Shown here piece by piece: positions 3,054 to 6,503 of a stretch of DNA of 32,411 nt. The notes below the pieces were generated by a model. That model was not told where the DNA came from. It searched no databases and saw nothing but the letters and a program-made list of their open reading frames with translations. Source of the DNA: a virus; IMG/VR virus record IMGVR_UViG_3300005264_000032, positions 1-32,411 of that record; one strand, 5' to 3'. The translations under genes were made by a program, and so were the position numbers. Every line of letters starts with the position of its first letter. The first letter of the stretch is position 1.

Positions 3054-3230
3054 ATGAAAAATTACGATGAAAAACTATTAGAGATGTCCGAAGATGAACT
3101 TGATGTTTTTGCAAAAAAACAAGCAGCAATAGTCGAGTATAACCCAAGGGGTAAAAAAAGATGTCGTTGTTGTGGGTCTATTATCCACGTTTTTGCTACA
3201 ATATGCACAGTGTGTAATTGTACGCAGTAA
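3054..3230 (+). CDS. Small zinc-ribbon protein, 58 aa
   Basis: A 58-residue protein: an acidic helical N-terminal half (about residues 1-30) and a compact C-terminal half with C38, C40, C41, then C51, C54 and C56. The spacing RCRCCGS ... ICTVCNCTQ looks like a treble-cleft or zinc-ribbon knuckle. It may bind nucleic acid or act as an adaptor. No UGA codon is present. It is the last gene before a hairpin and the tRNA. Confidence 0.65.
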   Translation: MKNYDEKLLEMSEDELDVFAKKQAAIVEYNPRGKKRCRCCGSIIHVFATICTVCNCTQ

Positions 3231-3237
3231 CTAACCA

Positions 3238-3259
3238 GAGGGGCAGTATTCTGTCCCTC
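3238..3259 (+). terminator. Hairpin between zinc-ribbon gene and tRNA
   Basis: GAGGGGCAG pairs with CTGTCCCTC over nine base pairs (one G-T) across a TATT loop. No T-run follows, so it may be a weak terminator or an RNA processing or stability element next to the tRNA. Confidence 0.55.
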
Positions 3260-3266
3260 ATAACAT

Positions 3267-3337
3267 AGGTAAGTAGTTCAATGGTAGAACAGTCAGCTCC
3301 AACCTGGCATATATGGGTTCGATTCCTATTTTATCTG
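3267..3337 (+). tRNA. tRNA-Trp (anticodon CCA)
   Basis: The whole cloverleaf can be drawn. Acceptor AGGTAAG pairs with TTTATCT (two G-T pairs); then TA; D stem GTTC/GAAC with loop AATGGTA; anticodon stem GTCAG/CTGGC with loop CTCCAAC, giving anticodon CCA; a 4-base variable region; T stem ATGGG/CCTAT with loop TTCGATT. The discriminator base is G, as usual in bacterial tRNA-Trp. No 3' CCA is encoded. CCA reads UGG only, not UGA, which fits UGA being glycine rather than tryptophan in this genome. Confidence 0.9.
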
Positions 3338-3347
3338 ATTTTAATAA

Positions 3348-3375
3348 TTGAAAAAAAAACATAAATACTTATAAT
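3348..3375 (+). promoter_or_regulatory. Promoter TTGAAA-16-TATAAT
   Basis: TTGAAA at 3348, a 16-base spacer beginning with an A-tract, and a perfect TATAAT at 3370. It lies 26 bases upstream of the ATG at 3402 and shares spacer length with the other promoters in the window. Confidence 0.75.
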
Positions 3376-3401: not shown

Positions 3402-3656
3402 ATGAAAAAAGTAATGTTATTTAAGAAATTAGACGACCACAAGAGGACAAGTAATATCCTCAATGATTTAGAAGTAAGAGTAGCTAAATTTTCCTTAGAG
3501 AAGCCAAACCTAACAGCTTTGAAGAGACAAAAATTACAATCTATTGTTACTAAGATTACCGACATTAAGGCTGTTCTTCGTGAAATAGCACTAGATGAAC
3601 TTGTTGATGAAGATTGAGATGAAGATAAACAAAAAGAGATTCAGAAACTGTATTAG
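3402..3656 (+). CDS. Hypothetical protein, 84 aa, acidic C-terminus
   Basis: An 84-residue helical protein. The first 70 residues are Lys/Leu-rich (DHKRTSNILNDLEVRVAKF), the tail is acidic (ELVDEDGDEDKQKEIQKLY) with one UGA glycine. The stop is TAG at 3654-3656. It has its own promoter and is transcribed toward a minus-strand gene whose stop overlaps this one by four bases. No family recognised; its position alone in a promoter-rich region hints at a regulatory role, which is inference. Confidence 0.7.
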
Positions 3657-3922
3657 TCTTCATCTTTTTGAAGAGTTGTAAGCCAGCACCAGAACTCATG
3701 TAATGTAACTTTTTTCGTAGAAATACTATCGGTTACTTGTCATGGATTTAGCGATCACATATAGTCCATCATTAAATGTTGGGCTATTTTTGATTTATAT
3801 CAAATAGTCCTTCATTCCGGGGATATTTTGTTTCTCCTCTTGTGCATTTGTAATCTTTTTATTTTGAAATCCATTTTTTCAATCATTTTAACACATCAAT
3901 CGTAACTAGCTGGTATTTTCAT
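3653..3922 (-). CDS. Minus-strand small basic protein, 89 aa
   Basis: The only supported minus-strand gene. From ATG at 3922 it reads 89 residues with five UGA glycines and stops at TAA overlapping the end of the convergent gene. It is basic in the first half (KMDFKIKRLQMHKRRNK) and has an aromatic patch near the end (LHEFWCWL). Support beyond the open frame: a promoter of the window's own type (TTGAAT, 16-base spacer, TATATT) sits upstream on the minus strand, and the region has no plus-strand gene. A DNA- or RNA-binding regulator would fit the basic charge and location, but no domain is recognised. A stem GGGCTATTT/AAATAGTCC at 3781-3810 lies inside it. Confidence 0.6.
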
Positions 3923-3932
3923 ATATTTTCTA

Positions 3933-3960
3933 TTGAAATAAAGATTTATTTGAATATATA
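3933..3960 (+). promoter_or_regulatory. Plus-strand promoter of packaging genes, TTGAAA-16-TATATA
   Basis: TTGAAA at 3933, a 16-base spacer and TATATA at 3955, 47 bases upstream of the ATG at 4008. Its -10 overlaps the -10 of the opposing minus-strand promoter. Confidence 0.65.
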
Positions 3961-3980
3961 CTTAAATATACAAAATTCAA
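3953..3980 (-). promoter_or_regulatory. Minus-strand promoter TTGAAT-16-TATATT
   Basis: Read on the minus strand: TTGAAT (plus 3975-3980), a 16-base spacer, TATATT (plus 3953-3958). A start site near 3946 would give a leader of about 24 bases before the ATG at 3922. The two divergent promoters share bases 3955-3958, so polymerase could occupy only one at a time. Confidence 0.6.
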
Positions 3981-4007
3981 TACGTTTTTATTATTTATGA
4001 TTATACC

Positions 4008-4511
4008 ATGGCTAAGAAAGAAAGAAAATTTGTTCTAAAAGAACCTGGAGTGTTCGACTTGATCGAGACAGCTGAAAGAACAGATACTGTAGATGTAGGT
4101 AATGCACTAGAGTTTCTTTATAAGATGAGGGCAGAACTAGCTGGGTATAAGAAACAGCGTATACAACTTATTGATAGTATGAACAATACTATTGAGACAT
4201 ACAATAAAATGGTATCTGAACTAGAAAGTCTTGAAATAGAGGAAATAGACGTTGCGGAGTTTCATTCTGGGAAAGTGGACTATCAGGATACTCTAACAAA
4301 AATAATTTGAGTTAAAATAAACCTACTTGGTTTGAAAAATAACTTTGAAGCACTTGCAAAAAGAATAGAGGATGGGGTTAATGGTTACAATCATAGTATA
4401 GACCTTATGAACGAAGCTAATAACAAACTAGAGATGGGTGTTGAGTGAATCCCAGAAAAATTTGACGAAGCAGATCTACTAGATATGACTAAAGAAGATG
4501 ACAAAAAGTAA
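4008..4511 (+). CDS. Coiled-coil protein upstream of terminase (possible small terminase)
   Basis: A 167-residue protein, largely helical. The central part has long coiled-coil character (MRAELAGYKKQRIQLIDSM followed by IETYNKMVSELESLEIEE), and the second half repeats a similar pattern (LKNNFEALAKRIEDGVNGY). The tail is acidic. UGA occurs at residue 101 and again later, so a standard-code call would end at 4310. It is the first gene after the divergent promoter and lies two genes before the large terminase, the usual place for a small terminase subunit, which often has a helical oligomerisation core. I see no clear helix-turn-helix, so that name is only a guess from position. It overlaps the next gene by 14 bases. 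Confidence 0.75.
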
Positions 4512-4776: not shown

Positions 4777-6439
4777 ACAGTATCAAGCTTTAATGTATCT
4801 GGGTATTATCCCAGTTAGTGATGTTATTGATTGAAAGCGGGTGGCTAGAATAGATAAGCAGTGACAACCAGTATTTGATGACACAACTGTTACTCTTTGA
4901 TATTGAGGAGCGGCTTGATGATGAAAGTCATATATTGGTTGTAAATGGCTTAGTATGGTTGCCAAAAGATATCCAGGGACTAGACGGTTTATAGCCAGAG
5001 AAGAGTTGAAAAGGTTGAAGTGATCGACCCTTTTAACTCTTTTTGAAATATTTGAATCAGAATGAATGGTGCGTGATGTTGATTATTCATATAATAACAT
5101 AGCTGGAGAAGTAAAGGTTTTCAATTGAGACAGTCCAACAACAGTTATAATGCTATTATGATTAGAGGAATTACCATCAGATCCATTATATTCTAGGTTT
5201 TGATCAATGGAGTTTACTTGATGATTTATTGATGAAGCAAATGAAGTAGCTGAAAACTGATTCAACATTTTGGGTACTCGTATAAGGTTTAAGTTAGAAA
5301 AGTTCTGTCCGCATTGTGCATGAAGTATATCTAGTGACAACTTTGTGCGTGTTGATAGCATAGATAATCCAGACCAGACAGACGTTGATGACAAATACAT
5401 AGAAAAGAACTTATATAAGTGTCCTACATGCAATAACAGTACATATGGTCTATGTCCAAAGGTATTATGTACATTTAATCCAGACAAATGACGAGTTTAC
5501 CATAAATACTATAAACCATGGAGGCAGTCAAAATTACCAACACATACGAAGTTTATACCAGCATTAGCTACTGACAATCCACATCTACCAAGGGTGTATA
5601 TACAGAGCCTAAAATCCCTGAAAGATAAAGTGATGAAACAGAGGCTTCTGTATGGTAATTTTGATTATGACGATTCACCTGGTAGGTTGTACGAATACGA
5701 TGAATTGCTAGCTATGTTTTCCAGAGAAACAAATACTTCATTGCTTAGTAAAAAATTAGAAGAGGATACAATGTTCAAAAAAGCAGTTAGTATCCATTGA
5801 AAAAGAGAAATAACAGGCTATAATTATAGGATAGTGTGTGATCCAGCCAGACACTGACGTGACCGAGCTGTGATTACATTATGGAATGGTCTTTCGGTAG
5901 AAAAAATAATAATATATCTAAAATCAGATATCACAGAACTAGAGGACGAGATAAGAAAATTATGGGACAGATACTGAATATGATCCAGGCAAACAATTGT
6001 CGATGATGATTGAGTTTGATGATGACTAAAAGATAGTCTTAAATGTGTTTGATTCGTAAATAATGCACAAGCCATCCAACCAAAAAAAATGAAAAAAAAC
6101 AAAATGGAAAAATTAAACTATCAAAACCTAAAGACTCAGTGCTATTTTGAAATAGCAAATCACTTGGAAAATATGGCAATAAGTGTTGATGATATAACAA
6201 TAAAGTGATGAACACACGAGGAGATGGCTGCACTCACACAAGACATAATAAAAGAAAGGTTACTAGAAGAACTTGATGCAATGGTAGAAGTTGATATTGA
6301 TAAAGATTGACCAAAAAAAATAATACCAAAAAAAGATTTAAAGAAAAAATTATGAAGATCCCCAGATATGTGAGATTGTATAATGATGAGGATGTTTTGG
6401 GAAATAAAGGCAAGTTCACGTGCTTTCGTATATTGATAA
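4751..6439 (+). CDS. terL: Terminase large subunit (TerL)
   Basis: The DNA-packaging motor ATPase and nuclease, 562 residues. The ATPase half has Walker A GGAAGGGKS at 52-60, an arginine-bearing segment RRFIAREELKRLKGS, Walker B with catalytic glutamate GGFIDEANE at 157-165 and coupling motif TFNP at 241-244. The pattern ATDNPHLPRVYIQSL (272-286) and KQRLLYGNF (296-304) is typical of TerL. The nuclease half has VCDPARHGRDRAV with Asp364 and Asp371 and VDDDGVGGG near 417-425. Between Walker B and motif III there is an insertion with CPHC (186-189) and CPTC (224-227), which looks like a zinc ribbon. Most motif glycines are UGA, including three in a row in Walker A. The ATG at 4751 overlaps the previous gene by 26 bases. 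TAA ends it just before a promoter and terminator. Confidence 0.95.
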
Positions 6440-6450
6440 CTCTTCAATAT

Positions 6451-6478
6451 TTGCAAAAAAAAAGTTTATGATTATAAA
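6451..6478 (+). promoter_or_regulatory. Promoter TTGCAA-16-TATAAA for portal gene
   Basis: TTGCAA at 6451 followed by an A-tract, a 16-base spacer and TATAAA at 6473. Transcription would begin inside the terminator hairpin that follows, so upstream transcripts stop where new ones start. The portal ATG is 31 bases downstream. Confidence 0.7.
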
Positions 6479-6503
6479 AGGGGCAGTTTAGCTCCTTTTT
6501 TTT
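6476..6503 (+). terminator. Intrinsic terminator after terminase gene
   Basis: AAAAGGGGC pairs with GCTCCTTTT across an AGTTTA loop, followed by a run of eight or more T. The 5' arm shares bases with the -10 box of the promoter at 6451. Confidence 0.85.

Follow-up and report, generated by a model that had tools for sequence, protein, structure and literature searches.

An apparently inverted small gene in the packaging module of phages that read TGA as glycine

Introduction

Divergent and antisense transcription within a single phage locus has precedents of several kinds. Bidirectional promoters carry a shared symmetrical -10 element, with divergent start sites ~10, 18 or 23 bp apart (Warman et al. 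2021, as cited in PMC12825309), and in the five E. coli examples tested basal transcription was too low for polymerases to compete (PMC12825309). In the noncontiguous operons documented in S. aureus phages, for example ith-1/tha-1 of phage 80alpha, an antisense gene is nested in a co-directional operon, a layout that can yield opposed expression (PMC11087260). CI/Cro-type switches consist of two divergent genes, with promoters facing away from each other in a short spacer. Moron and defence genes, too, commonly stand alone and antisense within a late operon, whilst small genes, the small terminase subunit among them, are found beside the large terminase gene (TerL).

Here we describe a locus that recalls each of these systems in part. 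It lies in a virus record of 32,411 bases (the window, by which we mean the whole stretch of DNA analysed), whose recognised proteins are the large terminase, the portal, the major head protein, the head-tail connectors, the tape measure and the distal tail protein. A sequence-only reading had drawn attention to a lone minus-strand gene, here called fam, and proposed that it forms part of a switch. The features of the locus are as follows, with L numbers denoting the records compared with the window.

3348..3375, plus strand: strong promoter of the phage's own class, upstream of 3402 (PWM 26.5 bits)
3402..3656, plus strand: convergent 84-aa gene with no assigned function; no counterpart found at that place in L008
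3653..3656, strand not applicable: four-base tail-to-tail stop overlap, TTAG in the sequence, between fam and gene 3402-3656
3653..3922, minus strand: fam, 89 aa, predicted to be mostly helical, inverted with respect to homologues in related phages
3923..4007, strand not applicable: AT-rich divergent spacer of 85 nt, alignable with the L008 spacer (score reached by 0/500 base shuffles)
3933..3960, plus strand: candidate promoter upstream of 4008, TTGAAA (3933-3938), 16 nt, TATATA (3955-3960)
3953..3980, minus strand: tentative candidate promoter upstream of fam, TTGAAT (3980-3975), 16 nt, TATATT (3958-3953), scoring 9/12
4008..4511, plus strand: 167-aa coiled-coil-like protein, first gene of the packaging operon and gene-order partner of fam, with homologues that adjoin fam in L008, L009 and L011
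4751..6439, plus strand: large terminase subunit (phrog_2, E 1.6e-16)

As in bidirectional promoters, the -10 hexamers overlap on both strands; here, however, each direction has its own -35-like box, and the start sites are placed from sequence alone. As in the S. aureus noncontiguous operons, an antisense gene is nested in a co-directional operon, with fam between plus-strand genes 3402 and 4008. It differs from them in that fam is in line in relatives and appears to have become antisense by inversion, that no defence or toxin gene is involved, that its own promoter is tentative and that the overlap of transcripts is a prediction. The two divergent genes and their short spacer resemble a CI/Cro-type switch, but no repressor-like protein and no clear operator repeats were recognised. 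Lastly, fam is small, helical and beside TerL, as small terminase subunits are, but it has no terminase family match.

Results

A conserved minus-strand gene in a TGA-glycine genome

The minus-strand ORF at 3653-3922 is open under table 25 and encodes 89 aa, with five TGA codons and a net charge of +6. TGA stands for glycine in this genome: in the major head protein, its TGA codons stand opposite GGN codons in relatives, and within fam the alignment of the window with L008 pairs TGA with TGA twice and with GGG once, all glycine. This code is known from Absconditabacteria, Gracilibacteria and many phages assigned to Absconditabacteria (PMC10746230). A tRNA with anticodon UCA, for TGA as glycine, was not found in the window, the only tRNA found there being tRNA-Trp (anticodon CCA, 3266-3338). 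Elsewhere in the window, two similar small ORFs built on a six-base repeat (1808-2008 and 2456-2788) have TGA at about every second codon (26/66 and 47/110, respectively); an overlapping frame would encode an acidic (T-D/E)n repeat, which leaves it uncertain which frame is the true one.

All five glycines of the minus ORF are encoded by TGA, as compared to 52% of glycines across 34 genes, and no Shine-Dalgarno sequence was evident at its start, raising the suspicion of a spurious ORF. This was ruled out by L008, a virus whose major head protein is 75% identical to that of the window, and which carries a 91-aa ORF in the same place and on the same strand with 36% identity (tblastn, E 3e-18); conservation of the protein in this relative places the ORF far beyond chance. 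Its codon-usage score (0.05) falls within the ranges of both real genes (-0.19 to 0.42) and antisense ORFs (-0.99 to 0.22) and is alone too weak to settle the matter; most other long minus ORFs of the window score lower than real genes. A structured RNA in place of a gene was also rejected, with no Rfam match and unconvincing folding z-scores of -2.1 and -1.7. The contig L003/L004 is 99.9% identical to the window and was rejected as independent evidence, being the same virus.

The minus ORF is therefore a true gene, encoding a member of a family of small, mostly helical proteins. The earlier description of a lone, basic, 89-residue minus-strand gene diverging from the packaging genes was accurate, and the check that it proposed, conservation under table 25 in related phages, is answered by the same-strand L008 homologue. 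No other credible minus-strand gene was seen in the window, where each of the remaining long minus ORFs lies opposite a real gene. The four-base overlap of its stop with that of convergent gene 3402, also described earlier, is present; L008 has a similar overlap (CTAA, 3338-3341), but with a different plus-strand gene.

Homologues of fam are in line with the packaging genes in other relatives

Relatives were reached via a search with the major head protein. In L009 and L011 the fam homologue is on the plus strand (E 3e-6 and HMM E 9e-5, respectively) and is followed directly by the homologue of the coiled-coil gene at 4008 and then by TerL, all co-directional. At the profile level, six further records (L027, L030, L031, L033, L035 and L037) have a small gene of the fam family between TerL and portal, followed by the coiled-coil gene, and L138 has a plus-strand member upstream of TerL (E 4e-5), in a region where the local genes are open under the standard code. 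The homology of fam to the L030/L033 group and L138 is of profile level, with single-profile E-values of 3e-5 to 0.045. In hhalign comparisons with the L030/L033 group, fam scored 34.3, the best of 200 column shuffles reaching 19.5, and its coiled-coil partner scored 32.6, with no column shuffle above 18.1; the partner is also found in the L030/L033 groups by an A8 profile match (E 6e-7). Annotated phages gave no usable fam homologue. When genome contigs were scanned with the portal, a single Gracilibacteria contig (L066) came up, and fam was not found in it. Records L005, L006, L012 and L013 end before or at the fam position.

The terminase genes of some relatives contain long in-frame, intein-like insertions (L006 868-3663, L008 4466-7111, L009 1216-4956), apparently two of them in L009; the window terminase has none.

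A portal tree groups the window with L008 (support 100/100). Every placed record that has fam on the plus strand lies outside this clade; the plus orientation is seen in L009 and L011 as well as in six records at a greater distance. Given this topology, a single in-place inversion of a packaging-module gene is the simplest history, and it probably took place in the common ancestor of the window phage and L008. It could be somewhat older than the split of these two from their sister clade, L005/L013, since the contigs of that pair stop before the fam position. An assembly error is unlikely, given that two divergent viruses, each from a different contig set, share the arrangement.

A shared promoter class and the divergent spacer

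We found that this phage group has a promoter class of its own, TTGCAAAAA...TATAWT, in which an A-tract follows the -35 box and the spacer is 16 nt long. Four strong sites are present in the window, upstream of 3402, 6510 (portal), 7968 and 21368 (plus-strand positions 3348, 6451, 7840 and 21313), and the class recurs before the portal or the next gene in L005, L008, L009, L011, L012 and L013. Sites in these relatives are at L008 7121 and 8539, L009 5110 and 6546, L011 7044 and 14978, L012 2857, L005 1224 and L013 3552. Within a few bases of the window site at 6451, upstream of the portal, is a terminator-like hairpin (6476-6499), giving an attenuator-like layout. The convergent gene of L008 has no class promoter upstream.

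A search for plus-strand terminators from the 3348 promoter to 4008 found none, and read-through antisense to fam is therefore expected. On the other strand, no terminator follows fam in the window, so that a minus transcript would run into 3402, in agreement with what had been predicted from the sequence alone. L008 does have an intrinsic minus-strand terminator, 75 nt past its fam homologue (9 pairs, eight T), the sole one of such quality in 18.9 kb (P 0.005), which suggests that the minus strand is transcribed in that virus. This terminator (3242-3264) lies within the coding region of the convergent plus-strand gene (3144-3341).

Two promoters of the same design, facing away from each other and with four -10 bases in common, had been proposed for the spacer. 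Both promoter-like sites are present, and when read with 16-nt spacers on each side their -10 boxes share positions 3955-3958. Measured against the phage's own promoter class, however, they are not of one design. Once the training sites are set aside, no site in the window matches the class PWM better than the plus site at 3933 (16.3 bits, reached by 0.1% of spacer base shuffles; an intragenic site at 5797 scores 14.4), whereas the minus site does not resemble the class (rank 703). An alternative plus reading, with an 18-nt spacer to TATACT at 3957-3962, scores 10/12. From the positions of the boxes, start sites are predicted at ~3946 (minus) and ~3967 (plus), ~21 bp apart.

Promoter-like 9/12 sites in general occur at chance level (73 found against 78 expected from shuffles in 16 kb). 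The overlapping pair, defined by two 16-nt spacers, two sites of at least 9/12 and -10 boxes sharing at least 2 bases, arose in 38/3000 dinucleotide shuffles of the 85-nt spacer (1.3%) and occurs at only two places in the whole window; a looser scan with spacers of 16-18 nt gave an overlapping pair in 4.9% of shuffles, and both sites anywhere in 19%. The L008 spacer keeps TTGAA of the minus -35 box, but a 9/12 minus site is missing from it, as is a plus-strand site of the class. A search of the spacer for operator repeats returned only short AT-rich inverted repeats, of which there are many per region. These results make a divergent promoter pair with overlapping -10 boxes plausible; the plus promoter at 3933 is probable from its likeness to the class, and a minus promoter may be present in the window phage.

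Gene neighbourhood suggests a packaging accessory role for the fam product

AlphaFold predicts three helices for fam (pLDDT 76, pTM 0.42), and in a second model, that of the L030 member, two long helices occupy the positions of fam's last two. Structure searches with the fam model gave no significant fold match. In Pfam, PHROGs and NCBIfam, fam has no family match, whether DNA-binding, regulatory or otherwise; specifically, no HTH or repressor family was matched by fam or the 4008 product, and no TerS domain or family by fam. PADLOC gave no match for fam and one weak match for the L008 homologue (E 0.0024). Net charge across the family ranges from +6 to -7, and a basic charge is thus no family property. 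In the L030/L033 groups, the fam member follows TerL, and a separate protein of small-terminase size precedes TerL. We posit that the fam product is most likely a small head or packaging accessory protein that acts with the coiled-coil protein of 4008; it is gene neighbourhood that points to this role, because no library names the protein and no meaningful structural match was obtained.

Discussion

Taken together, this analysis favours, with somewhat better than even confidence, an inverted packaging-module gene that is driven from the divergent spacer, lies antisense in the late operon and still encodes a packaging accessory. The sequence-only reading had instead proposed a genetic switch, in which the two promoters are mutually exclusive and the 89-aa protein regulates the packaging operon. 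The overlapping -10 boxes with their matching spacers, rare in shuffled spacers, the +6 charge of the protein in the window phage and the conservation of the divergent spacer with L008 speak for it. Yet L008 keeps the gene and only part of the promoter elements, neither promoter being of the same standard there, fam matches no DNA-binding or regulator family, its charge is not shared across the family, and its relatives reside in the packaging module, co-directional with the packaging genes. Bidirectional promoters ordinarily have overlapping -10 boxes, and at the five tested in E. coli polymerases do not compete at basal levels (PMC12825309), so that such boxes alone make no switch. We therefore regard a switch with a regulator as improbable and as the least economical reading.

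A noncontiguous operon that sets timing, in which head-on transcription is mutually repressive and production of fam is confined to times when the late promoter upstream is inactive, we consider rather unlikely, even though S. aureus phages provide documented examples of noncontiguous operons (PMC11087260), the strong class promoter at 3348 is followed by no plus-strand terminator before 4008, and the candidate minus promoter differs in type from the phage class. Against it, the convergent gene of L008 is not preceded by a class promoter, and the minus transcript of that virus seems to end early, leaving a smaller mutual overlap. A more specific version is doubtful: that the inversion created a noncontiguous operon in which output of the accessory protein and transcription of the packaging genes would exclude each other, serving as a packaging timing device in TGA-glycine phages. 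An origin of fam as an accessory gene, of moron or defence type, that was inserted antisense among the packaging genes is very improbable; its lone antisense position in the late operon is what such a gene would show, but fam itself has no PADLOC match, and homologues resident in the same module of divergent relatives argue against a recent insertion.

According to the inverted-gene explanation that we prefer, fam was formerly in line with the packaging module and would have been turned around in place in the ancestor of the window phage and L008. Its transcription would from then on have to come from the 85-nt spacer, probably from a bidirectional promoter in which one TATATA core is used for both strands. 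Lying antisense inside the late operon, as the lack of a plus-strand terminator between the 3348 promoter and the packaging genes implies, fam would be transcribed separately, in the manner of a noncontiguous operon. Its product would most likely still be a head or packaging accessory partnering the coiled-coil protein of 4008, with expression uncoupled from transcription of the late operon and possibly dampened by it, should the two interfere.

The rearrangement is real but modest, and it is not evidence of a regulatory switch. It provides a natural case of a phage gene switching strand yet keeping its place, and the two states, in line in L009 and L011 and inverted in the window phage and L008, permit a direct comparison of the effect of orientation on timing. 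A protein family absent from the libraries searched is added to the packaging modules of related phages, and the shared promoter class offers a starting point for studying how these uncultivated phages are transcribed.
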